Shown: positions 7,489 through 61,331 of the stretch, one piece after another
How the letters are laid out: the number at the start of each line of letters is the position of its first letter
Numbering within the stretch: the first letter of the stretch is position 1
Origin: Coriobacteriia bacterium
Lineage (GTDB): Bacteria; Actinomycetota; Coriobacteriia; Anaerosomatales; JAAXUF01
Assembly: GCA_013336165.1 (NCBI GenBank)
Contig: JAAXUF010000004.1
Span: forward strand, 62,001 to 126,000
DNA: 64,000 bases
Direction: 5' to 3'
Translations under genes and position numbers: made by a program
The notes under the pieces: model-generated
What the model saw: only the letters and a program-made list of their open reading frames with translations
What the model was told of the DNA's origin: nothing
The model's database searches: none

Positions 7489-7504
7489 GAAACACTTCCG
7501 AAAC
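7489..7504 (+). promoter_or_regulatory. Candidate GlnR half-site pair upstream of amtB
   Basis: GAAAC at 7489-7493 and GAAAC at 7500-7504 are separated by six bases, the 11-bp phasing of the actinobacterial GlnR half-sites (GTnAC-n6-GAAAC). The first half-site differs from the consensus. It lies in the 202-bp uvrA-amtB intergenic region, about 90 bases before the amtB start. It is included mainly because related pairs occur at the two other nitrogen promoters in this window. Confidence 0.4.
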
Positions 7505-25461: not shown

Positions 25462-26133
25462 TTACCCGTTCCAGAGATACCCCACGTTGCGCACCGTCTC
25501 GAGGCGACGCGAGAGTTCTGCGCCGATTTTGGAGCGGATTCGACGCACATGCACGTCGACCGTGCGAGATCCGCCGTAGTAGTCACTTCCCCAGACGCGC
25601 CTGAGCAGCACCTCGCGCGAGTACGTGCGACCGGGATGCGTGACGAGGAACGAGAACAGTGAGTACTCCAGATACGTGAAGTCGATCGGTTCTCCGCGCA
25701 GGTACGCCTGATAGGTGGCAAGGTTGAGCGTGAGTTCGTCGATACGCACAAGCTCCTGCCTGGCAACTTCTTCGCCGGGCCAGAGCAGGCCGCGCACACG
25801 AGCAGCCAACTCGTCGGAGGTTGCGCCGCGAACTAGGAAGTCGCTCGGCATGCGGACGGGAAGCCGCAGTCCCGCAAGCGCCTCGGACTCCACTAAGACC
25901 AGCAGCTTGAGGTCCACGCCGCCGGAAGATGCATGCTCAACGATGTGACCAAGCGCCTCGGGGCTGCGGCCGCCATCCAATACGACCAGATCGGCCTTAT
26001 CGTCGACAAGACGTTTGGGCAAGTCCCCTGTCGAACAAAGAAGCGATCTGACGTCGAGCGGCTCAACAGCTCGTGTCACCCATGCGGATGTATGAGAGTC
26101 GTCTGAGACGATGAGAATGCGTTTCATATGCAT
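25462..26133 (-). CDS. glnR: GlnR-like OmpR-family nitrogen regulator
   Basis: A 223-residue response-regulator-like protein. The C-terminal winged helix (LTLNLATYQAYLRGEPIDFT, VWGSDYYGGSRTVDVHVRRI, LETVRNVGYLW) closely matches actinobacterial GlnR as I know the Mycobacterium sequence, including TVRNVGY and the GGxRTVDVHVRR signature. The N-terminal receiver keeps an acidic pair and Asp53, but the conserved Lys is replaced (FLVRGAT) and the Thr/Ser switch residue is not obvious. This fits GlnR, an orphan regulator not controlled by normal phosphorylation. GlnR activates glnA, amtB and related genes under nitrogen limitation. Its position directly after glnA supports the name. Start choice is between 26133 and 26127; GAGGAAAA upstream favours 26133. 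A longer frame to 26316 is unlikely. Confidence 0.78.
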   Translation of the reverse strand: MHMKRILIVSDDSHTSAWVTRAVEPLDVRSLLCSTGDLPKRLVDDKADLVVLDGGRSPEALGHIVEHASSGGVDLKLLVLVESEALAGLRLPVRMPSDFLVRGATSDELAARVRGLLWPGEEVARQELVRIDELTLNLATYQAYLRGEPIDFTYLEYSLFSFLVTHPGRTYSREVLLRRVWGSDYYGGSRTVDVHVRRIRSKIGAELSRRLETVRNVGYLWNG

Positions 26134-26169
26134 GATGATACCGTTTTCCTCGCTCAGGGGAATGACAGC

Positions 26170-26194
26170 GCCGGACGAGAAGCTCTCGCCCGGC
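26170..26194 (-). terminator. Hairpin between glnA and glnR
   Basis: On the minus strand GCCGGGCGAGA and TCTCGTCCGGC form an 11-bp stem with one G-T pair and a three-base loop. No T-run follows, so this is either a weak terminator or an RNA-processing or stability element setting the glnA:glnR ratio. Confidence 0.4.
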
Positions 26195-26233
26195 GCCGGG
26201 TACCTCATTTCCACCAGGGGTGGGGATTGTTCC

Positions 26234-27571
26234 CTAGATGATCGAAAGGTACTTGTCGAGCTCCCACTGGGTGACCTGGGTCCGGTACTCGTTGTACTCG
26301 GCACGCTTGTTCTCAACGTAGAAAGAGTGGATGTGATCGCCGAGGATCTCCTTCATGAGTTCCGAGCCCTCGAACAGGTCGATGGCCTCGCCCAAGCTGC
26401 CCGGCAGTGTGTAGATGCCGGCAGCGTCGAGCTCTTCCTGGCTCATGTGGAAGATGTTGTTCGTGGCCTCCGCAGCGAGTTCCAGCTTCTCCTCGATACC
26501 CTTGAGACCCGCGCCCAGCATGCAAGCGAATGCGGTGTAGGGGTTGGCCGAGGGGTCCGGGCAACGCAGCTCGATGCGAGTCGCGTTCTCCTTGCCGGGC
26601 TTGTACATCGGGACGCGAACGAGAGCCGAGCGGTTGCGGCGGGCCCACGCGATGTAGACCGGAGCCTCGTAGCCGGGGACCAAGCGCTTGTAGGAGTTCA
26701 CGAGCGGGTTGGTCACGGCGCAGAACTCGGGGGCGTACTTCAGGATACCGGCGATGTACCACTTGGCGATCTGGGAAAGGTTGAAGCCTTCCGGATCGTT
26801 GGCATCGAAGAACGCGTTGCCGTCCTTGGTGAACAGCGACTGGTGAACGTGCATGCCCGAGCCGTTCTGGCCGTAGATCGGCTTGGGCATGAAGGTGGCG
26901 TACACGCCGTGCTGCATCGCGATTTCCTTGACGATGAGGCGGTATGTCATGACGTTGTCGGCCATGGTCAGGGCATCGGCATAACGCAGGTCTATCTCAT
27001 GCTGCGACGGGGCAACCTCGTGGTGCGAGTACTCGACCGGAATACCCATCTGCTCGAGGGTGAGAACCGTGTTGCGGCGAAGGTCAGATGCGATGTCGAG
27101 GGGAGTCAGGTCGAAGTAGCCACCCTGATCGAGAACTTCGGTGTCCTGATCGTCGGCGAAGTAGAAGAACTCGAGTTCGGGACCAACGTACATGGTGTAA
27201 CCCATGTCGGCGGCCTTCTTGAGCACGCGCTTCAGCGCATAGCGGGGATCGCCCTCGAACGGCGTGCCGTCAGGCTTGACGATATCGCAGAACATGCGGC
27301 CGACGCCCTGTGCGGACGGACGCCACGGGATGACCTGGAAGGTCTCCGGATTCGGGTAGGCCACCATGTCGGATTCCTCGAGGCGGGTGAAACCGTCGAT
27401 CGAGGAGCCGTCGAAACCCATACCCTCGGAGAACGCGCCTTCGAGTTCGGTGTCGGTGACGGCAAACGACTTCAGCATGCCGAGCACGTCGGTGAACCAG
27501 AAGCGCACGAAGTGAACGTCGCGCTCCTCAACGGTCTTGAGCACATAGTCCTTATCGAACGTTGGTGCCAT
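26234..27571 (-). CDS. glnA: Glutamine synthetase type I (alpha subgroup)
   Basis: GlnA condenses glutamate and ammonia to glutamine with ATP. The start is the ATG at 27571 (MAPTFDKDYVLKTVEERDVHF) with AAGGGAGG upstream, giving 445 residues, the size of the GSI-alpha class. Motifs are GFDGSSIDGF, GPELEFF, EVAPSQHEIDLRYADAL, NGSGMHVHQSLF, RVPMYKPGKENATRIELRCPDPSANPYTAFA and ALKGI-like LKGIEEKLE. The position where the beta class has the adenylylated Tyr reads HMSQEELDAAGIYTLPGSL, without the NLYDLPPEE motif, so adenylylation control is not expected. A GlnR-type box and a hairpin lie upstream. glnR follows, and the glutamate synthase genes precede it. Confidence 0.96.
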   Translation of the reverse strand: MAPTFDKDYVLKTVEERDVHFVRFWFTDVLGMLKSFAVTDTELEGAFSEGMGFDGSSIDGFTRLEESDMVAYPNPETFQVIPWRPSAQGVGRMFCDIVKPDGTPFEGDPRYALKRVLKKAADMGYTMYVGPELEFFYFADDQDTEVLDQGGYFDLTPLDIASDLRRNTVLTLEQMGIPVEYSHHEVAPSQHEIDLRYADALTMADNVMTYRLIVKEIAMQHGVYATFMPKPIYGQNGSGMHVHQSLFTKDGNAFFDANDPEGFNLSQIAKWYIAGILKYAPEFCAVTNPLVNSYKRLVPGYEAPVYIAWARRNRSALVRVPMYKPGKENATRIELRCPDPSANPYTAFACMLGAGLKGIEEKLELAAEATNNIFHMSQEELDAAGIYTLPGSLGEAIDLFEGSELMKEILGDHIHSFYVENKRAEYNEYRTQVTQWELDKYLSII

Positions 27572-27656
27572 GTGTAGCCTCCCTTTCCTGACGTGCCGGA
27601 CGGCGCGTCGACAGACGGATCGATTCGAGCCATCTACCACAGAGTAGTCATTCTAT

Positions 27657-27700: not shown

Positions 27701-28522
27701 TCACAGATTCGTATACAGCTTCCCGTAAGGCCGATGGCTCAGAGGCGCGAGCTTTGTGAACGGCTTGGACAGCACCTCCTTGAGGTCCATCCCCAGGTCC
27801 GCGCAGTACTCGGCAAGCACGGGAGAAAGCTCGGCCAGATCGGTCTCGGTCGCAGCGGTCACACCGACCTCATTGCCGCATTGCCACGATTCGACTTCCC
27901 CACGCACGTAGATCGTGCCACCGTGCATGCCAGTGCCGAGGTAGCCGCCCACGAGCGGGCGCTCGGCGTCCTTGCTCATGCCGAGCAGGACCAGCAGCCC
28001 TCCCGCCATGTACTCGCCAAAGAAGTCCCGGGCCTTGCCGCCGCACACCACGATCGGCCGAAGCTCCTCGAAGGCCTTCATGTGAATGCCGACTCGGTAG
28101 CCGACGTCGCCCTTAATGAACAGCTTGCCGCCGCGCATACCATAGCCGAGCACGTCGCCCGCGTCGCCGTGGATCACGACCTTGCCTGCGTTCATGGTGT
28201 TGCCCACACCGTCCTGCGCGTTGCCGAACACCTCGATCGTGGGGCCGTCCATGAGCATCGCCATGTCCTGCCCGGGAGTCCCGTGCACCTCGATCGACAG
28301 ATTCTTGCCGCGAACGCCGGTGCCAATGTAGCGCTGGCCGTTCACGTTGTTGAGCACGACTTTGGTGGCTCCGTCGGCAAAAGCCGCCCGCACAGCGGCG
28401 TTAACTTGCCGGTAATACACTCCTTTGACGTCCATCGTGACGGTATCGCCCTCGCGAACCGTAGCCGGCTCGACGCAAGCGTAACCTTCGACGGGGCCGC
28501 CCGTTGGCTTTGTCACTGTCAT
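27701..28522 (-). CDS. gltB3: Split glutamate synthase, GXGXG subunit
   Basis: A 273-residue protein corresponding to the C-terminal GXGXG beta-helix domain of glutamate synthase GltB. Repeated glycine-rich turns are visible (GVRGKNLSIEVHGTPGQDM, GDAGDVLGYGMRGGKLFIKGDVGYRVGIHM, GTGMHGGTIYVRGEV). In full-length GltB this domain braces the amidotransferase and synthase domains. Here it is a separate gene, as in archaea and some anaerobic bacteria. It lies 17 bases after gltB2. The family is shared with tungsten formylmethanofuran dehydrogenase subunit C, but the neighbours settle the assignment. Confidence 0.9.
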   Translation of the reverse strand: MTVTKPTGGPVEGYACVEPATVREGDTVTMDVKGVYYRQVNAAVRAAFADGATKVVLNNVNGQRYIGTGVRGKNLSIEVHGTPGQDMAMLMDGPTIEVFGNAQDGVGNTMNAGKVVIHGDAGDVLGYGMRGGKLFIKGDVGYRVGIHMKAFEELRPIVVCGGKARDFFGEYMAGGLLVLLGMSKDAERPLVGGYLGTGMHGGTIYVRGEVESWQCGNEVGVTAATETDLAELSPVLAEYCADLGMDLKEVLSKPFTKLAPLSHRPYGKLYTNL

Positions 28523-28539: not shown

Positions 28540-30051
28540 CTAAAGGCCCGCGGGCTTGACGCCCAGAATGTCACACGTCTGCTTGTCGAGACCAACGGCA
28601 CGCAAGCGCTCCCTGCTGCCGCGAAGCGACTCGACCGCGTTCACGCCCAGCGCGCCGAGGATCTCCTGGAGTTCGTGGCTCCACGCATGCACCAAGTTGG
28701 TGAGCCTCTCGGCGCCCCACTCGGGATCGAGGCGGCGCGTCAGTTCCGGCTTCTGGGTGGTGAGTCCCCACGAGCAGCAGCCCGTGTGACAGCCTTGGCA
28801 CAGGTGGCACCCGAGCGCCATCAACGTCGCCGAGCCTATCGCCACGACGTCGGCGCCCAGCGCGATCGCCTTCGCCATGTCCGCCGAGGAGCGGATCGAG
28901 CCGGCCGCGATGATCGACGCCTGGTTGCGGATCCCCTCTTCTCGCAAGCGCTGGTCGACGACTGCGATCGCGATCTCAATCGGGATGCCCACATGGTCGC
29001 GGATGATCGCCGGAGCTGCGCCGGTGCCCCCGGTGAAGCCGTCGAGGTAGACGTAGTCGGCACCCGCGCGCACGACGCCCGACGCGATGGCGCCCACGTT
29101 GTGCACCGCTGCGATCTTGACGCCGACAGGCTTGTAGCCGCTAGCCTCCTTGAGCGAGTAGATGAGCTGGCGCAGGTCCTCGATCGAGTAGATGTCGTGG
29201 TGAGGAGCCGGCGAGATCGCGTCGGTTCCCTGCGGGATCATGCGGGTGGTCGAGACTTCCTTGTTGATCTTCTCGCCGGGAAGGTGCCCGCCGATGCCCG
29301 GCTTGGCGCCCTGGCCGATCTTGATCTCGATGGCAGCACCACGGTTCAGATACTCGGGGCTTACGCCAAAGCGACCGGAAGCCACCTGCACGATGACGTT
29401 GTTCCCATAGGGGTAGAGGTCCGCATGGAGGCCGCCCTCACCGGTGTTCATGAGGATGCCGAGACGTTCGGCTGCCATCGCAAGCGATTTGTGGACGTTC
29501 AGCGACACGGAACCGTAGCTCATCGGCGCGAAGATGAGGGGGGTGTCGAGCTTCACGTTGTTTTCGACGCCACTTCCCGGCTTCAGGCGGTAGCCGCCTT
29601 CGCCGTTGGCCTCGACCTCCACACTGTCGGGTTTGCGACCGAGGTAGGTGCGCAGTTCCATCGGCTCACGAAGCGGATCGATGGAGGGGTTCGTCACCTG
29701 GCACGCGTCAAGCACGAGGTGGTCGAAGATCTTCAGATACGGCTTGTCGTTGCCCATGCCGGTCAGCATGACGCCGCCGGATTCGGCCTGACGCCACACG
29801 TTCTTGCGAAGCTCGGGCGACCAGTTCGCGTTGTCACGCAGCGCGAGGTCGTTCTTCTTGATCGTGATGCAGTGCGCCGGGCAGTACGTCACGCAGCGGT
29901 GGCATGCGCGGCACTTGCTGTCATCGGGGTACGGGCGCTCGTTGAACGAGTACACGCCCCAGCCGCACTGCTGAACGCAGCGACCGCACTTGTGGCACTT
30001 GTTGTAGTCGATCTCGACCCGGAACTCGGGCTGAATGAGGCTTGTGGGCAT
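28540..30051 (-). CDS. gltB2: Split glutamate synthase, FMN synthase subunit with ferredoxin domain
   Basis: A 503-residue catalytic subunit that forms glutamate from 2-oxoglutarate and ammonia at FMN. The N-terminus carries two [4Fe-4S] motifs (CHKCGRCVQQC at about residues 19-29, CRACHRCVTYC at 47-57), absent from classic GltB. The FMN barrel follows with PLIFAPMSYGSVS, GEGGLHADLYPYGN, IEIKIGQGAKPGIGGHLPG, GVKIAAVHNVGAIASGVVRAGADYVYLDGFTGGTGAAP and AAGSIRSSADMAKAIALGADVVAIGSATLMALGC. A cysteine cluster CHLCQGCHTGCC corresponds to the [3Fe-4S] site. It lies one base after gltB1. No NAD(P)H-binding GltD subunit is in the cluster, so electrons probably arrive through ferredoxin or the HdrBC-like partner. 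Confidence 0.93.
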   Translation of the reverse strand: MPTSLIQPEFRVEIDYNKCHKCGRCVQQCGWGVYSFNERPYPDDSKCRACHRCVTYCPAHCITIKKNDLALRDNANWSPELRKNVWRQAESGGVMLTGMGNDKPYLKIFDHLVLDACQVTNPSIDPLREPMELRTYLGRKPDSVEVEANGEGGYRLKPGSGVENNVKLDTPLIFAPMSYGSVSLNVHKSLAMAAERLGILMNTGEGGLHADLYPYGNNVIVQVASGRFGVSPEYLNRGAAIEIKIGQGAKPGIGGHLPGEKINKEVSTTRMIPQGTDAISPAPHHDIYSIEDLRQLIYSLKEASGYKPVGVKIAAVHNVGAIASGVVRAGADYVYLDGFTGGTGAAPAIIRDHVGIPIEIAIAVVDQRLREEGIRNQASIIAAGSIRSSADMAKAIALGADVVAIGSATLMALGCHLCQGCHTGCCSWGLTTQKPELTRRLDPEWGAERLTNLVHAWSHELQEILGALGVNAVESLRGSRERLRAVGLDKQTCDILGVKPAGL

Positions 30052-30052
30052 G

Positions 30053-31321
30053 TCAGCTCACCTCAACTATCTCGCAGGAATCGGCAACACCGGTGACCGC
30101 GCAGGAAACCTCGCCCGCCGAGAGGTGTAGGTCTCCGTGGATGGGCCATGGCATGTCCTTGACGCGCGCGATGACAGGCTCACCGGCCTTGGGCGCCCAG
30201 ACGGAATCGGGGGCCTCCAGCACCTCACGAATAGCCGATTCCTCGGAAGCGACCATAAGGCGCGAGCCTTGGCGCGCAGCGACGAGCGGCCGCAGCTTGA
30301 TGCGGTCGTTCAGCGCCACCATGCCGCCGTTGAAGCCGAGCACGATCGCGAACGGACCGTTGAGCATCGCGGGTCCGTAGACCGCGCGAATGCTGCGCAT
30401 TACGGCTTGCTCCTCGGCGGGCATGCGGTCGATCTCGGTCCACAAGGGACTCGCGAGCGCCTTGCAGGCCAGATCGAGCGGCAGCTTGTGGCGGCGGAGC
30501 AGCAGGTCGAACAGATACGCGGCCACCTCGGTGTCGGTGCCCAGCGTGCACTTGTAGCCGAACGCTTCGAGGTAGCGGCTGTTGATGCCGTAGCTCGAGA
30601 TCTCGCCGTTGTGCACGATCGACCAGTCGAGCAGCGTGAACGGGTGTGCGCCGCCCCACCAGCCGGGAGTGTTGGTCGGAAAACGGTTGTGACCGGTCCA
30701 CGTGTAGCCCTGATACTCCTCAAGGAGGTAGTAGTGGCCGATCTCCTCGGGGAAGCCAACGCCCTTGAAGGCACCCATGTTCTTGCCGCTCGACGCGACA
30801 AACGCGCCGTCGACGCTCGAGTTGATGAGCATGACCGTGTGGACGATGTAGTCGTCGGCGGTCATCTCGGAGTTCTCGAGCTTGTGCGGATCGGGCTGTA
30901 GGAAGTAGCGCCACAGGATCGGCGCGTCGCTGATGCCCTTCACGGGACGCGTGGGCATGGGCTCGGCGAGGTCGACAACGAAGTAGCGATCGAAGACGCC
31001 TTCCGTCTCCTCCTTCGCCTTTGCGTCGTGATACATCATGTGGAAGCAGTAGTGGTCCGGAAACTCCGGGTAGATGCCGTAGCCGGCATAGCCGCCGCCT
31101 AGGCCGTTACCGCGGTCGCGCTGCACGGCCATGGCCTTGATGGCCTCGATCCCGCTCATCAGCGTGCCGGACTCATCGCAGATGCCCATCAAGCCGCATC
31201 CGCCGTGGATCTTGAAGGACGCCTCCTCAGCATAGCGCGGGCGCTCGCCGAAGGAGAACTCGCCGGAAAGCGCGGCCGGCCGACTCGTGGGCATCCTCTC
31301 CAACAGAGGTTCGTACGACAT
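30053..31321 (-). CDS. gltB1: Split glutamate synthase, class II amidotransferase subunit
   Basis: A 422-residue Ntn-type glutamine amidotransferase that would hydrolyse glutamine and pass ammonia to GltB2. The likely catalytic cysteine is in KIHGGCGLMGICD near residue 42, so a propeptide of about 41 residues would need removal to free the N-terminal Cys. Other motifs are TWTGHNRFPTNTPGWWGGAHPFTLLDWSIVHNGEISSYG, CTLGTDTEVAAYLFDLLLRR and GPFAIVLGF, typical of GATase_2 enzymes. It is two bases after the HdrBC-like gene and one base before gltB2, so the four genes are tightly co-translated. Confidence 0.92.
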   Translation of the reverse strand: MSYEPLLERMPTSRPAALSGEFSFGERPRYAEEASFKIHGGCGLMGICDESGTLMSGIEAIKAMAVQRDRGNGLGGGYAGYGIYPEFPDHYCFHMMYHDAKAKEETEGVFDRYFVVDLAEPMPTRPVKGISDAPILWRYFLQPDPHKLENSEMTADDYIVHTVMLINSSVDGAFVASSGKNMGAFKGVGFPEEIGHYYLLEEYQGYTWTGHNRFPTNTPGWWGGAHPFTLLDWSIVHNGEISSYGINSRYLEAFGYKCTLGTDTEVAAYLFDLLLRRHKLPLDLACKALASPLWTEIDRMPAEEQAVMRSIRAVYGPAMLNGPFAIVLGFNGGMVALNDRIKLRPLVAARQGSRLMVASEESAIREVLEAPDSVWAPKAGEPVIARVKDMPWPIHGDLHLSAGEVSCAVTGVADSCEIVEVS

Positions 31322-31323
31322 AT

Positions 31324-32667
31324 CTATTCAGCTCCCTTATGCGTATCTTCCGGCTCGGCCATGAGGCGTGCCATGGCGTCGCCCCCGCTAGCCGGCAGTG
31401 GTCCCATACCGAGCTTCTTGCGGGCGGACTCCCTCGGCTTACCTAGGGTTCCGGTCTCCATGAACATCTTGTAGGACTGCGGCACCGATTCCGGCCCCTT
31501 GCTGGCGGCAATCGCGAGTTCTTTAAGCTTGCGGAAAGTCTCGGCCATGCCGATGCCTGAGTGGCACAGCTCCTGGCACGTGTAGCACTCGACGCACTTC
31601 CAGATCTGGCCGTCTTCGATGACCTGGTCGATCTCGCCGCGCAGGACCTGGCCGATGATCTCGGTAGGCTTGAAGGTCGTGTCGACCTTGCATACCGGGC
31701 AGTCGTCCTTGCATGCCGAGCAGTTGAAGCACTTGCCGAGCAACGCCACGTCGAAGTTCTGGGCGATGCGCTTCTTGTCGCTGGCGCGCGCGTTCCACTT
31801 CTTCAGGAACGAGTCGACGCTGACGCGGTGCATGTCTAGGCCGATCTCCTCGGGCGTGTGCCCGTAGGTCAGCGCGATGAGTTCGGAGAGGTAGAGCACC
31901 GGGACGTGAATGTTCTCGTTGGCGCGCTGCATGGCGGCCTGGTTCAGGTCGAACTGCTGGAAGCAGCTCGGGCACACGACCACGAGCGCGTCGACCTGGT
32001 TGTTCTGGAGGTCGTTCAGTTTCCGGCGGCAGAATGCGAGCGAGCTGTCGCGCTCCCCGACGCGGTCGAGCGCTCCGCCACAGCACTGCATCTTCGTGGT
32101 GTAGTCGACAACGTTCGCCCCCAACGCCGAGACAATCGCCTCAACCTTAGTGGGATGCAGCGGGTCGTCCCAGCGCACGGCCGGCTGCGGACGCAGCAGG
32201 TGGCAGCCGTAGTGGACGGCGATGCGCATGCCCCACAACGGTTTCTTGGCGCCGGATGCGATAACGCCCGCGCCGAGACCATCGGAGAGCCACTCGGCGA
32301 AATGAATGACTTGGAGGTCGCCACCATAATGCAGACCCTCGCGCTCAAGACGCTCGTTGATGACGTCGCGCTCGCGCCAGTGAGTCTTGAGGTGACTCTG
32401 CGCCTCCTTGAACGTCGAGTAGCACCCGTTGCATGGGGTGACGACGTCCAGGCCGGCCTGCTCGACGAGCGCCAAGTTGCGCGCGGCGGCGGTGTAGAAC
32501 GTGTCGGGGTCGTTCGCCTTGACCAGCGTCCCTTCCGGGCAGCAGGTATGACCCGCGAGCTCATGAACCTGAGCGCCGAGGTCGTCAAACATCACACGCG
32601 TGGCCTTCTCGATGAACGGGAACCGCGCGGGGATCGTGCACCCCCAGAAGACCGCGAACTCCTTCAT
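31324..32667 (-). CDS. HdrB-HdrC fusion-like iron-sulfur protein (heterodisulfide reductase family)
   Basis: A 447-residue protein with two CCG domains followed by a HdrC-like ferredoxin part. The first CCG has Cys10, Cys42-43, Cys79 and Cys82; the second has Cys155, Cys195-196, Cys232 and Cys235. Both fit the Cx31-39CCx35-36CxxC pattern that binds the noncubane [4Fe-4S] clusters of HdrB. The C-terminal part has two classic [4Fe-4S] motifs (Cys313/316/319/323 and Cys358/361/364/368). The order B then C is the reverse of HdrD. Start is the ATG at 32667 with AAGGTG upstream. As first gene of the glutamate synthase operon it is a good candidate electron-transfer subunit; a role in thiol-disulfide chemistry is the alternative. 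No HdrA is in the window. Confidence 0.85.
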   Translation of the reverse strand: MKEFAVFWGCTIPARFPFIEKATRVMFDDLGAQVHELAGHTCCPEGTLVKANDPDTFYTAAARNLALVEQAGLDVVTPCNGCYSTFKEAQSHLKTHWRERDVINERLEREGLHYGGDLQVIHFAEWLSDGLGAGVIASGAKKPLWGMRIAVHYGCHLLRPQPAVRWDDPLHPTKVEAIVSALGANVVDYTTKMQCCGGALDRVGERDSSLAFCRRKLNDLQNNQVDALVVVCPSCFQQFDLNQAAMQRANENIHVPVLYLSELIALTYGHTPEEIGLDMHRVSVDSFLKKWNARASDKKRIAQNFDVALLGKCFNCSACKDDCPVCKVDTTFKPTEIIGQVLRGEIDQVIEDGQIWKCVECYTCQELCHSGIGMAETFRKLKELAIAASKGPESVPQSYKMFMETGTLGKPRESARKKLGMGPLPASGGDAMARLMAEPEDTHKGAE

Positions 32668-32710
32668 GCGCGCACACCTTCCAATCACGACCGGATCTCA
32701 AGAGACGGCG

Positions 32711-32793
32711 AAACGAAAAACACCCGCTCAACCCTTGTGGGGTCAAGCGAGCGCCGTTGCTCGCGTCTCTTGGATTCGGTACGCCTTTGTACC
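32711..32793 (-). promoter_or_regulatory. Two-hexaloop ANTAR-type antiterminator leader of the glutamate synthase operon
   Basis: On the minus strand hairpin P1 is GGTAC-AAAGGC-GTACC (32793-32778) and P2 is GCGAGC-AACGGC-GCTCGC (32764-32747), with a 13-base linker. Both hexaloops have A at position 1 and G at position 4, the signature recognised by ANTAR-domain proteins. The 3' arm of P2 is also the 5' arm of a terminator stem (CGCTTGACCC with GGGTTGAGCG, 32749-32725) followed by GGGTGTTTTT. P2 and the terminator are therefore mutually exclusive. ANTAR protein binding would stabilise P2 and permit transcription of the operon. Confidence 0.85.
32725..32749 (-). terminator. Leader terminator (attenuator) before the HdrBC-like gene
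   Basis: Ten-base-pair stem with two G-T pairs (extendable to about 13) and a CACAA loop, followed by TTTTT at 32720-32716 on the minus strand. It lies between promoter and start codon, 44 or more bases before the operon's first ATG. Confidence 0.8.
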
Positions 32794-32801
32794 GTGCGCG
32801 G

Positions 32802-32810
32802 AGTATAGCA
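32802..32810 (-). promoter_or_regulatory. Extended -10 promoter of the HdrBC/glutamate synthase operon
   Basis: TGCTATACT on the minus strand is an extended -10 element with five of six consensus bases. Initiation would fall near 32795, two bases before hairpin P1 of the leader. No good -35 hexamer is present, which fits activator dependence. Confidence 0.65.
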
Positions 32811-32828: not shown

Positions 32829-32844
32829 GAAATGTGGTGGAAAC
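32829..32844 (+). promoter_or_regulatory. Candidate GlnR half-site pair upstream of the glutamate synthase operon
   Basis: GAAAT (32829-32833) and GAAAC (32840-32844) are separated by six bases on the plus strand. The pair is centred about 41.5 bases upstream of the inferred transcription start near 32795, the usual position for an activator that replaces the -35 contact. Confidence 0.45.
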
Positions 32845-37944: not shown

Positions 37945-38514
37945 TTAGATCTCGGCTTCTGCGGCGAGAATGACCGCTTCAGCCATCTCCCGAAGCGTCT
38001 TTCGCTTGTCCATCGCGACCTTCTGAAGGCGCTTGAACGCCTCGGGCTCACTCGCCCCCCGTGCCATGAGAATCCCCTTCGCGCGGTCGACAAGCTTCCG
38101 AGTCTCCAGACGCTCGGCGAGGTCGGCGACTTCGTTGGCAAGCGAGACTGTCTCGGCGTAACGCGAGATGGCGATAGCCATCGCCGGCAGTATGTCGGCA
38201 CGCGAGAACGGCTTGACAACGTAGCCCATCGCACCGCCCGCCGCCGCCTGTTCCACATAACTAGCTTGCGAGAACGCGGTTACCATGACCACGGGAGCCA
38301 GACGCTCTTCGCCGAGCACCGCGGCGGCCTCGATGCCGCTCACGTTGGGCATATTGATGTCCATGAAGACGATGTCTGGGTGCAGCCTGCGCGCTAACTC
38401 GATGGCCTCGGCGCCGTCACGCGCCTCACCGACGACCTCGTGCCCCTCTTCTTCGAGCATCTCGCGCAGGTCCATGCGGATGAGCGCCTCGTCCTCGGCG
38501 ATCAGAATGCGCAC
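37945..38514 (-). CDS. pdtaR: ANTAR-domain response regulator (PdtaR-like)
   Basis: A 189-residue RNA-binding response regulator. The receiver has the acidic residues in IAEDEALIR, phosphoacceptor Asp52 (VFMDINMP) and Lys101 (VVKPFSRAD). The C-terminal ANTAR domain is about residues 125-180 (RKLVDRAKGILMARGASEPEAFKRLQKVAMDKRKTLREMAEAVI), with the conserved AKG(I/V)LM and EAF motifs. ANTAR proteins bind paired hexaloop hairpins and prevent transcription termination. A GTG start lies four bases after pdtaS. The best candidate RNA target seen is the leader of the glutamate synthase operon at 32711-32793. Mycobacterial PdtaR and firmicute EutV are the closest models. Confidence 0.94.
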   Translation of the reverse strand: MRILIAEDEALIRMDLREMLEEEGHEVVGEARDGAEAIELARRLHPDIVFMDINMPNVSGIEAAAVLGEERLAPVVMVTAFSQASYVEQAAAGGAMGYVVKPFSRADILPAMAIAISRYAETVSLANEVADLAERLETRKLVDRAKGILMARGASEPEAFKRLQKVAMDKRKTLREMAEAVILAAEAEI

Positions 38515-38518
38515 TCGA

Positions 38519-39970
38519 TCAGTCCTCCAGAGTGTCGAACGCAGACGGCTTAGGTTCGCAGTGGGCCAGATCAGGCAGCGGTGCGCGCACCGTGACGGTC
38601 GTGCCGCGGCCGCCCGAGAACGTCAGCGTGCCGCGCAGATCGTCCTCGACGACAGTGCGCACGATCGTCAAGCCCAGATTCGCCGAGGTGGCCGGGTCGA
38701 AGCCTTCCGGCAGCCCCGCGCCGTCGTCGCGCACGGTGATCACGAGCTCACCCGGAACGCGCCGCATGACGACCTCGACGTGCCCGCTCTGGCGATCCGC
38801 GATGCCATGCTCGAGCGCGTTGTGCACGAGCTCGGCCACCGCCAGCGCAAGTGCGGTCGCGGTATGCGCATCCACGTCACCGGTGACGCCTTCGACCGAT
38901 ACTGTGATCGCACTCCCCTCACCCAAAATCCCCCGGCTCACAAGCCCGACGATGGTGCGGGCGGCCTCGGCGAAGTCGACACACTCCTTGTCGCTTCCGG
39001 CGAGCAGATCGTGCACGACCGCCATGGAACTCACGCGCTCTGTCGCCTCGGCGAGGGCGTGCCGCGTCTCGACCGACTCGCTGCGGCGTGCTTGGATGCG
39101 CAGAAGGCTCGCAATGGTCTGCAGGTTGTTCTTCACGCGGTGGTGGACTTCTCGGATGGTCGCTTCCTTGACCTTGATCTCCTGATCGCGCCGACGAGCC
39201 TCGGTTCTGTCCTCGACGAGGACCAGAGCGCCTGCGGGAAGGGCGATCGTGCGATACTCGAAGACACGCCCGCCCACCTCCACGTCTGTCGCCATCGCAC
39301 GATTGCCGCCTAGGACGGGGACAATTGCGATGCCCGCTCCCGGAAGGATCGTGGCCTTGGAGTCTCTCAGAGTTCCCTCGACGCCGGACAAGCGCATGAT
39401 GTTCACGGCGTTGGGGCTCGCATAGGTGACCTGGCCCGCGCCGCTCACGCGCATGACACCATCGCCGGCGCGACGTGTGGTCGCAAACGGCCCGCCGGTT
39501 CGATAGTCCATGAGCGGCCCGGAGTTCAGCGCCTCGAGCAGCTCCTCCGCGGCATCCATGAACGCGTTCTCCATCGCACCCGGCGACTCAGCGACCGCCT
39601 CGGCAAGGTCGCGGATGACCACGGCAAAAGGCTCCGGGGTGCCGATCGGCCACGCCGCGGTACCGTACTTGATGCCGCGCGCCACCCTGCGCCGATCGCC
39701 AAAGACCGGACGCTTCGATGCAAGCGCCTCGTACGCCTCGGGTTCCTCCTGGCGATCGAGCGTCTTGCCGTTGCGGCTGGAAGCAAACGGCGCCACGGCC
39801 GTGCTGGGGCGCGCGTCAGCCGCGACGGTGAGAAGTTCGTCCGGTCCAAGCACCGCCAGCGCGAAGTCTCCATAGCCCATGTCGGCAATGAGCTGCAGGT
39901 TCGCGGCAGCATTTCGCAAATGGACCCGGACGTCTTCAGGGTAGGCCGATATGAGATCGGATGAAGTCAT
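38519..39970 (-). CDS. pdtaS: Sensor histidine kinase, HisKA_2 type (PdtaS-like)
   Basis: A 483-residue soluble kinase. The N-terminal GAF-like domain (residues 10-150) and PAS domain (about 160-255, including RRAGDGVMRVSGAGQVTYASPN) resemble Mycobacterium PdtaS. The dimerisation and phosphorylation helix is TIREVHHRVKNNLQTIASLLRIQ with His276/277. The ATPase part has AVAELVHNALEHG, VRDDGAGLPEGF and LGLTIVRTVV. No membrane segment is present, so it senses a cytoplasmic signal. The start at 39970 is preceded by TATACT only six bases upstream, suggesting a leaderless message; a longer frame to 40075 is not supported. It is the cognate kinase of the adjacent ANTAR regulator. Confidence 0.93.
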   Translation of the reverse strand: MTSSDLISAYPEDVRVHLRNAAANLQLIADMGYGDFALAVLGPDELLTVAADARPSTAVAPFASSRNGKTLDRQEEPEAYEALASKRPVFGDRRRVARGIKYGTAAWPIGTPEPFAVVIRDLAEAVAESPGAMENAFMDAAEELLEALNSGPLMDYRTGGPFATTRRAGDGVMRVSGAGQVTYASPNAVNIMRLSGVEGTLRDSKATILPGAGIAIVPVLGGNRAMATDVEVGGRVFEYRTIALPAGALVLVEDRTEARRRDQEIKVKEATIREVHHRVKNNLQTIASLLRIQARRSESVETRHALAEATERVSSMAVVHDLLAGSDKECVDFAEAARTIVGLVSRGILGEGSAITVSVEGVTGDVDAHTATALALAVAELVHNALEHGIADRQSGHVEVVMRRVPGELVITVRDDGAGLPEGFDPATSANLGLTIVRTVVEDDLRGTLTFSGGRGTTVTVRAPLPDLAHCEPKPSAFDTLED

Positions 39971-39976
39971 AGAAGA

Positions 39977-39982
39977 AGTATA
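39977..39982 (-). promoter_or_regulatory. -10 element of pdtaS-pdtaR
   Basis: TATACT on the minus strand ends six bases before the pdtaS ATG, so initiation would occur at or next to the A of the start codon. No Shine-Dalgarno sequence fits in the gap. Confidence 0.5.
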
Positions 39983-40073
39983 CGCGCGGAGGGAAGACGA
40001 AACAGGTCTGCGAAGCATACAATCCGATAGAAGACCGGGGGCGGAGCGCTGCGCCAATGACCGAGGGGCATCC

Positions 40074-40859
40074 ATGGAGCATGAAGTCTCACCTCTACTG
40101 GAGCGGGAATCTCAGCTCAACCTGATCGCGTATTTCGTCATCCTCGCTCTGACCGCAGTTTCGGGTGTGTTGGTGTTCATGCTGATTGCCCGAGTAGAGG
40201 TGCCTTCCTTCTGGATCTTCAGCGACAACTGGGTTCGGGCTTTGAGCGTCGCCACCGTCTTCGGAATCGTCATTTATCTCGCCGACCAGCAACGCCGTCT
40301 CCAACTGAAGCTGCAGCACTCGTATGCTGAACTTCTGCAGGCTCGCGCCGAGATCATGGCCTCCGTCGACCGGTTCGCGTTCGCTCAGCACGCCGCGGAA
40401 ATCATGGTCACTCACCCGCAGGACGAGGGGCTTCGGGAACTGTTGAGCCAGGTCGCCGAGCATTTCGGCGCCAACGCATCCGCAGTTGTCGGAGCCGATC
40501 TCGAACTGTCCGTAAGAAACGAGGAGTACCGCGAAGCTGCGCGCGACGCCGTGATGAGGGCGTCTATCGAGACTGTGGGCAGAGGCACTCCCCTTACCCT
40601 GTCAACATTCGGTGACGGCTCGACGGCACTCGCTGTCCCGCTTCGAGTCAAAGGCCATCTCAAGAATGTGCTGTGTATTTGGCGCAAGTCGGGCAGCTTC
40701 CCCGAGCAGACACTTGACGGACTGCAGCTGGTGGCGCGGATCGTCGAGCTTGGCATGGAGAACAGCTCACTTCGCGCTCTCGACGACGAGGACTACGGGG
40801 AATCGCAGAATCGGCTTGACGAGACGTGGGACATGCCCCAGTCCGACACGCTATACTGA
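40074..40859 (+). CDS. Membrane-anchored GAF-domain protein, unknown
   Basis: A 261-residue protein starting at the ATG at 40074 with GAGGGG upstream. Two membrane segments (LIAYFVILALTAVSGVLVFML and ALSVATVFGIVIYLA, about residues 16-65) are followed by a short coiled coil (QQRRLQLKLQHSYAELLQARAEIM). A GAF-like domain with no kinase or output domain comes next. It is divergent from pdtaS with starts about 100 bases apart. It might feed a membrane signal to the soluble PdtaS kinase, but this rests only on location. Confidence 0.7.
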   Translation: MEHEVSPLLERESQLNLIAYFVILALTAVSGVLVFMLIARVEVPSFWIFSDNWVRALSVATVFGIVIYLADQQRRLQLKLQHSYAELLQARAEIMASVDRFAFAQHAAEIMVTHPQDEGLRELLSQVAEHFGANASAVVGADLELSVRNEEYREAARDAVMRASIETVGRGTPLTLSTFGDGSTALAVPLRVKGHLKNVLCIWRKSGSFPEQTLDGLQLVARIVELGMENSSLRALDDEDYGESQNRLDETWDMPQSDTLY

Positions 40860-60950: not shown

Positions 60951-61205
60951 CAAAAAGCCCTCGTCCGTCAAGGGACGAGAGCTTGCTCTCGCGGTACCAC
61001 CCTTGTTGACTCGCCGAGGAATCGGCGCGCCCACTTTGGTCCAACGGGTACTCCGGCGGCCATCGCCTTTCATACCCAGCCTCTTGTATCGGTGAGGATC
61101 CGTCGGCACTAATCAGTCGCTTGAGACCTTTGTGCCAATACCTCAGGGGCCCATTCCTTCAGAACCTTGCGCCAGGATTCCACCGTCCCCGGCTCTCTAT
61201 CGCGT
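60951..61205 (-). promoter_or_regulatory. tRNA-Trp-sensing T-box riboswitch upstream of trpE
   Basis: The minus strand shows the T-box order: AGAGAGCCGGGGACGGTGGAA of stem I, then GAATGGGCCCCTGAGG with the specifier TGG (61153-61151, tryptophan), and the T-box antiterminator sequence GGGTGGTACCGCG (61002-60990). A competing terminator CTCGTCC-CTTGAC-GGACGAG (60979-60960) is followed by GGCTTTTTG. Uncharged tRNA-Trp would stabilise the antiterminator and allow trp operon transcription. The 5' end is approximate. Confidence 0.93.
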
Positions 61206-61331
61206 TGGTGCTGAAATACTCTTCCCCGTCACAGGTAACGTGTTCGGTTAGGGGCGAGGATATCATTGTTCACCTGCGAAGCACAACTGCCTCTCGGACC
61301 GTATTCTTCCAGGCCGCCGCTCCGCACCCTA
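61206..61331 (-). other. Promoter region of the trp operon
   Basis: Between the SdpI-like gene stop and the T-box. One possible promoter on the minus strand is TTGTGC and TATCCT with an 18-base spacer (about 61284-61255); TATTTC near 61216 is an alternative -10. No coding region is seen. Confidence 0.4.

Follow-up and report, generated by a model that had tools for sequence, protein, structure and literature searches.

A leader RNA with the architecture of an ANTAR target precedes a split glutamate synthase operon in Anaerosomatales

The leader at 32794-32716 on the minus strand of the window, by which is meant the whole stretch of 64,000 nucleotides that was analysed, is very likely an ANTAR-target antiterminator. 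Judged from its sequence and by analogy with characterised systems, it would be read by a PdtaR-like response regulator that prevents termination ahead of an operon for an HdrBC-like protein, a split glutamate synthase and a glutamine synthetase (HdrBC-gltB1B2B3-glnA). The window belongs to a Coriobacteriia metagenome-assembled genome (2 Mb, 99.5% complete) of an uncultured subsurface bacterium in the order Anaerosomatales, which is described in PMC9686372. The leader has the architecture of an ANTAR target with two mutually exclusive structures, it is conserved and covaries in orthologs, and it co-occurs and is linked with one ANTAR protein.

The leader is built up by two hairpins and a terminator. 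P1 (CGGTAC-AAAGGC-GTACCG, 32777..32794) and P2 (GCGAGC-AACGGC-GCTCGC, 32747..32764) each carry a hexaloop with A in the first and G in the fourth position (A1 and G4), and they are separated by a 13-nt linker, GAATCCAAGAGAC (32765..32777). The core of P1, GGTAC-AAAGGC-GTACC, occupies 32793-32778 and is lengthened by a C32794-G32777 pair. The 5' arm of the intrinsic terminator (stem-loop at 32719..32755, U-tract TTTTT at 32716..32720) begins inside the P2 loop and includes the entire 3' arm of P2. An extended -10 element, TGCTATACT (32802..32810, minus strand), lies directly upstream of P1 and therefore places the inferred transcription start about 2 nt before P1; an element of the TGnTAnnnT type is found in the same position in 56 of 58 orthologous leaders scanned. 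A sequence-only reading of this DNA had described the hairpins, the linker, the terminator that re-uses the whole P2 3' arm, the U-tract and the start, and it is correct base for base. Its assignment to the ANTAR architecture also holds, as hexaloop hairpins, exclusivity of P2 and terminator, and a cognate ANTAR protein are all present.

A motif scan of the window (5-bp stems, linker of 3-25, terminator overlapping the P2 arm) found the combination of two A1/G4 hexaloop hairpins and a terminator re-using the P2 arm once, and not at all in 40 dinucleotide shuffles. When the transcript is folded as far as the terminator loop it forms P1 and P2 (-19.8 kcal/mol). In the complete leader the terminator fold reaches -33.8 kcal/mol against -28.4 kcal/mol with P2 enforced, so that the terminator is favoured by about 5 kcal/mol. 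P2 and terminator exclude each other by their shared 3' arm, by folding and by covariation. A covariance model of the leader finds the window site at 4.4e-25 in the 2-Mb genome, with no second full-model site and nothing else below E=3, and therefore the ANTAR layer appears to be specific to glutamate synthase. No family of Rfam 15 reached threshold at the leader site. The minimum-energy fold also contains a long-range helix between AAGAGACG in the linker (32764-32771) and CGTCTCTT after the U-tract (32700-32707, minus strand), which is strong in the window and has similar pairings in L007, L009 and L025. This helix was not retained as a component common to the leaders: a swap test across families gave a mean of -6.33 for own partners and -6.01 +/- 0.29 for swapped ones, and 256 of 2000 swaps were equally good, which is not significant.

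Orthologous leaders were compared in sets of 59 with complete upstream sequence (scored), 55 (alignment) and 58 (promoter scan). The expectation of the sequence-only reading that the hexaloops and the P2-terminator overlap recur in orthologous leaders is strongly borne out. P2 and the terminator are present in 59/59, P2 always as GAGC-N6-GCTC (GGGC in one), and P1 is present in nearly all, a strict scan finding it with a G4 loop in 55/59. G4 is found in all 59 P2 loops and is invariant in the P1 column of the alignment, on which the invariance in P1 rests, as G4 was a search condition for P1 in the strict scan. Both partners have changed in 6 of the 7 P1 pairs. For P1 and P2 together 48 cells have changed on both sides, compared with 14.0 +/- 3.0 after shuffling (0/500), and pairing falls from 90% to 22-43% when partners are slid. 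The terminator shows both-side changes at 10 of 14 pairs (shuffles 0/500). The column pair 74-105, which joins the fifth base of the P2 3' arm to its terminator partner, is G-C in 30 sequences and A-U in 24 with no mismatches, while the same base mismatches its P2 partner in 18 sequences. The overlap of P2 and terminator is thus under selection, because this base always pairs in the terminator and often not in P2.

The sequence-only reading had named PdtaR as the protein involved, and a protein of this kind does exist. It is a response regulator with REC and ANTAR domains (domain search; 37945..38514, minus strand), the sole ANTAR protein of the genome and the putative ligand of P1 and P2. Its gene is genetically linked with the leader, lying 5 kb upstream on the same strand, and adjoins the gene of a PdtaS-like histidine kinase with GAF_PdtaS, HisKA_2 and HATPase domains (38519..40075, minus strand; the true start may be internal). 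The closest solved homolog of the regulator is 1s8n (Rv1626; E 1.4e-62). When aligned with EutV and Rv1626 most RNA-contact positions are kept: R142, K143, K149, E160, M172 and R175 are identical, K147R, Y164F and N173D similar, and R168Q and R177T different. The position that stacks on G4 has retained an aromatic residue, Phe for Tyr164.

The association of leader and regulator extends through the class. A sample of 149 Coriobacteriia genomes was searched with the leader covariance model (E<=5e-5) and the ANTAR domain profile (above cut-off), giving the leader in 60 and the domain in 67. Both occur in 59 genomes, the leader alone in 1 (a genome that is 64% complete), the domain alone in 8 and neither in 81 (Fisher p=2e-31, phylogeny ignored). 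In all 47 pairs found on one contig the leader and the ANTAR gene are within 15 kb, and in 20 of these they are no more than 500 bp apart, the regulator gene directly preceding the leader. This physical linkage stands even though the Fisher value ignores phylogeny, because linkage is independent of it. Weak matches in the class (L103-L106, E 0.003-0.01) were rejected, as they sit in genes or repeats. L103, from a genome for which no ANTAR protein is listed, still scores 29 bits with the short model, and values of 20-30 bits are therefore weak evidence by themselves.

Gene contexts, and not modest match scores, carry the argument at three more distant loci. In another family of the class the gene of a GAF_PdtaS-ANTAR fusion without kinase (L097:1551-2663, plus strand) stops just short of the leader, which the same operon follows; by its domains the fusion is PdtaS-PdtaR reduced to one component. 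L110, from a different class of the phylum, has a GAF-GAF-ANTAR gene at 222-1481 followed directly by a two-hexaloop leader and terminator (1501-1596) before glutamine synthetase, and in a further class (L111) the leader stands ahead of the HdrBC gene. Taken together, the conserved and covarying leader, the pairing of one ANTAR protein with one leader, their co-occurrence and linkage, and the GAF_PdtaS-ANTAR fusion are why PdtaR very probably prevents termination in the leader. A plain terminator or attenuator read by some other factor, with incidental hexaloops, is the least probable of the alternatives considered and can hardly be upheld. The terminator alone is strong and the upstream gene is co-directional, as such an element would have it, yet P1 would be without a role there while it covaries and keeps its loop, a promoter element separates the upstream gene from P1, and the leader and the ANTAR gene co-occur and are linked.

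In the antitermination mechanism proposed here RNA polymerase would by default start about 2 nt before P1, the longer terminator hairpin would displace P2, and transcription would stop at the U-tract upstream of the HdrBC-gltB1B2B3-glnA-regulator operon. Upon induction PdtaS would phosphorylate PdtaR, which would then dimerise via its ANTAR domains and hold the hexaloops of P1 and P2. A P2 held in this way would withhold its 3' arm from the terminator and allow read-through into the nitrogen-assimilation operon. Binding by PdtaR, dimerisation, the requirement for phosphorylation and the sign of control are modelled on EutV and NasR.

PdtaR might instead bind the leader and control translation, as has been reported for mycobacterial ANTAR targets. 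This is very unlikely, as P2 ends at 32747, some 80 nt before the HdrBC start codon (ATG at 32667), and in the orthologs the intervening stretch holds a covarying intrinsic terminator built in part from the P2 arm. The switch or its sign might also differ: PdtaR could be active when unphosphorylated, or its binding could promote termination. The sign of control is not dictated by the sequence, the L097 fusion does without a kinase, and mycobacterial PdtaR is reported to bind different targets in its phosphorylated and unphosphorylated forms (PMC11537054). On the other hand, a stabilised P2 can only hinder the terminator because the two are mutually exclusive, and this alternative is therefore improbable. 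To our knowledge, all characterised ANTAR targets that overlap a terminator are antiterminated, which also counts against a different sign.

Several observations weigh against antitermination by PdtaR in the form proposed. The claim that both hexaloops have A1 and G4 holds in the window, and G4 holds in the orthologs, but A1 is not a strict rule: the first position of the P1 loop is A in 44 and G in 11 of 55 leaders, and that of the P2 loop is A in 56 of 59 and G in the rest. One leader (L024) has P2 and the terminator without a clear P1, and the eight genomes with an ANTAR domain alone also belong here. The 13-nt linker is longer than the natural range of 5-12 nt in the Enterococcus faecalis eut leaders (PMC3369931, PMC8934654), and a eutP linker of 14 nt markedly impaired induction in that species. 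Long linkers are the rule among the orthologs of this clade, equal to or longer than 13 nt, and therefore the geometry of the dimer may differ from that of EutV.

Initiation is probably controlled separately. Beside the -35 region lies a direct repeat resembling a GlnR box, GTTTC-n6-ATTTC (32829..32844, minus strand; GAAAT-n6-GAAAC on the plus strand), and a pair of [GA]TTTC half-sites with a period of exactly 11 bp precedes the -10 element in 38 of the 58 orthologous promoters. A scan of the whole genome for RTTTCnnnnnnRTTTC gives 8 sites. Five of these belong to two amtB genes, nifHD, the glutamate synthase operon and a divergently arranged glnA and glutamate-synthase-domain gene. The boxes of this set, of the GAAAC-n6-GAAAC type with an exact 11-bp period, lie at 32829-32844 and 7489-7504 of the window and in L198, L200 and L203. 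The boxes of actinobacterial GlnR, gTnAc-n6-GaAAc (PMC10704036), share with those found here the GAAAC half-site (their b-site), the n6 spacer, the 11-nt repeat and the location at amtB, glnA and glutamate-synthase promoters. They differ in that both half-sites are GAAAC-like here and that the presumed regulator gene lies inside the target operon.

These boxes probably mark a GlnR-like nitrogen regulon. The candidate reader of the promoter box is the OmpR-family regulator whose gene closes the glutamate synthase operon (25462..26256, minus strand); it was characterised by domain and structure-chain searches and is without a receiver domain recognised by Pfam. Its best solved chains are 8hih, 8hig and 8hml (4e-29 to 2e-25), ahead of PhoB and MtrA; we take these three to be actinobacterial GlnR, and on this similarity the protein may be a GlnR. 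No NCBIfam cut-off was reached by this regulator. Proteins resembling it occur in 69 of 79 relatives, in the most distant ones at paralog level only.

The sequence-only reading proposed that nitrogen assimilation is controlled at elongation. This is supported as one of probably two layers because the promoter carries the GlnR-like box, and the sharing of the box with amtB, nifHD and glnA points to such two-layer control. Nitrogen status would probably govern initiation, and PdtaS-PdtaR elongation. Tentatively, and with somewhat less confidence than doubt, this might amount to AND-type control in Anaerosomatales, in which a GlnR-like activator encoded within the operon licenses initiation through the boxes that amtB, nif and glnA also carry, and a dedicated PdtaS-PdtaR pair, with this leader as its one terminator-type RNA target in the genome, licenses elongation. 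The second input would then not be nitrogen status and might instead be redox or the supply of electron donor to the HdrBC-coupled glutamate synthase.

The operon is encoded on the minus strand and its genes were assigned by domain search. The first gene (31324..32667, with a start codon that agrees with the orthologs) encodes the HdrBC-like iron-sulfur protein with CCG domains and a 4Fe-4S domain. It is followed by gltB1 (30053..31321; class II glutamine amidotransferase subunit of the split glutamate synthase), gltB2 (28540..30051; FMN domain with an N-terminal ferredoxin domain), gltB3 (27701..28522; GXGXG domain) and glnA (26234..27640; type I glutamine synthetase). The sequence-only reading had given the operon as HdrBC-like protein plus split glutamate synthase, to which the glutamine synthetase has to be added. 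The HdrBC-like protein probably replaces the NADPH subunit GltD as electron entry. It has matches in 67 of 79 relatives, a count that takes in a few genomes where nothing better than a weak paralog was matched. The gene order HdrBC-gltB1-gltB2-gltB3 is also found in Deltaproteobacteria, there without the RNA leader; in the HdrBC-glutamate synthase loci of Deltaproteobacteria and Armatimonadetes the leader was not found (best E 0.91).

Other elements of a similar kind were seen elsewhere. In two other families of the phylum (L112, L113, L114 and L115, near 1501-1590) a GAGC-AACGGC-GCTC hairpin and a terminator stand before the apparent start of a full-length GltB; the upstream hairpin has no hexaloop there, and the genomes do encode ANTAR proteins. 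Further leaders were sought with a model of P1 and P2 only, whose next match (19.6 bits, E 0.07) is a single-hexaloop hairpin before a gene resembling elongation factor G and was not accepted as a leader. Single hexaloop hairpins just 5' of the ribosome-binding site of this gene are seen in L206 (near 980-1033; G000:C1:317282-317335), L209, L210 and L222, with loops AACGGC, AACGGT and AACGAT and with stems that differ and are weak in L210. They occur in the family of the window and one other and were not seen in the remaining families examined. Possibly this hairpin is a second, translation-type target of PdtaR. The window also contains a T-box leader (60968-61241, minus strand; Rfam, 105 bits) directly before trpE and a trpG-trpD fusion.

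The pairing of ANTAR control with glutamate synthase, which the sequence-only reading did not know as described, has in fact been predicted before. Ramesh et al. (2012) predicted ANTAR targets ahead of glutamate synthase genes of Desulfotomaculum reducens and in front of D. acetoxidans nitrogen operons, and their list of targets includes glutamate and glutamine synthases (PMC3369931). The Desulfotomaculum sites belong to multi-site regulons in Firmicutes, whereas here there is a single dedicated site before an HdrBC-linked split enzyme in an actinobacterial class, conserved with covariation throughout the order. As far as its main text goes, the survey of Actinobacteria by Mehta and Ramesh (2021) has few targets with terminators and mentions neither glutamate nor Coriobacteria. 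The E. faecalis eut leaders with EutV/EutW share the two A1/G4 hexaloop hairpins, a P2 that overlaps the terminator, and a REC-ANTAR regulator with a histidine kinase (PMC3369931, PMC8934654). Apart from the linker, they differ in serving ethanolamine use instead of nitrogen assimilation and in occurring several to a genome instead of once, while the kinase and regulator here are of the PdtaS/PdtaR type.

Mycobacterium PdtaS-PdtaR provides the closest solved regulator homolog and the same arrangement of a GAF_PdtaS and HisKA_2 kinase beside a REC-ANTAR regulator. Its targets are linked to lipids and redox and are controlled at the ribosome-binding site, in contrast to a terminator switch on nitrogen assimilation. 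In Klebsiella NasR acts by ANTAR antitermination at the nasF leader of a nitrate-assimilation operon. It resembles the present system in its role in nitrogen assimilation and, as a single sensor-ANTAR protein without kinase, the L097 fusion, but it serves nitrate assimilation and has another sensor domain. What is new here is the depth and dedication of ANTAR-glutamate synthase control in Actinomycetota, together with the GAAAC-n6-GAAAC box that is shared with amtB, nifHD and glnA.

With this leader, ANTAR systems of the PdtaS-PdtaR type outside mycobacteria would gain a clear, single and deeply conserved target, although few targets of the terminator type have been reported from this phylum. 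The question of which signal PdtaS senses becomes testable in a setting of one regulator and one target. The central nitrogen assimilation of a widespread and mostly uncultured subsurface order would also be tied to the control of transcription elongation.
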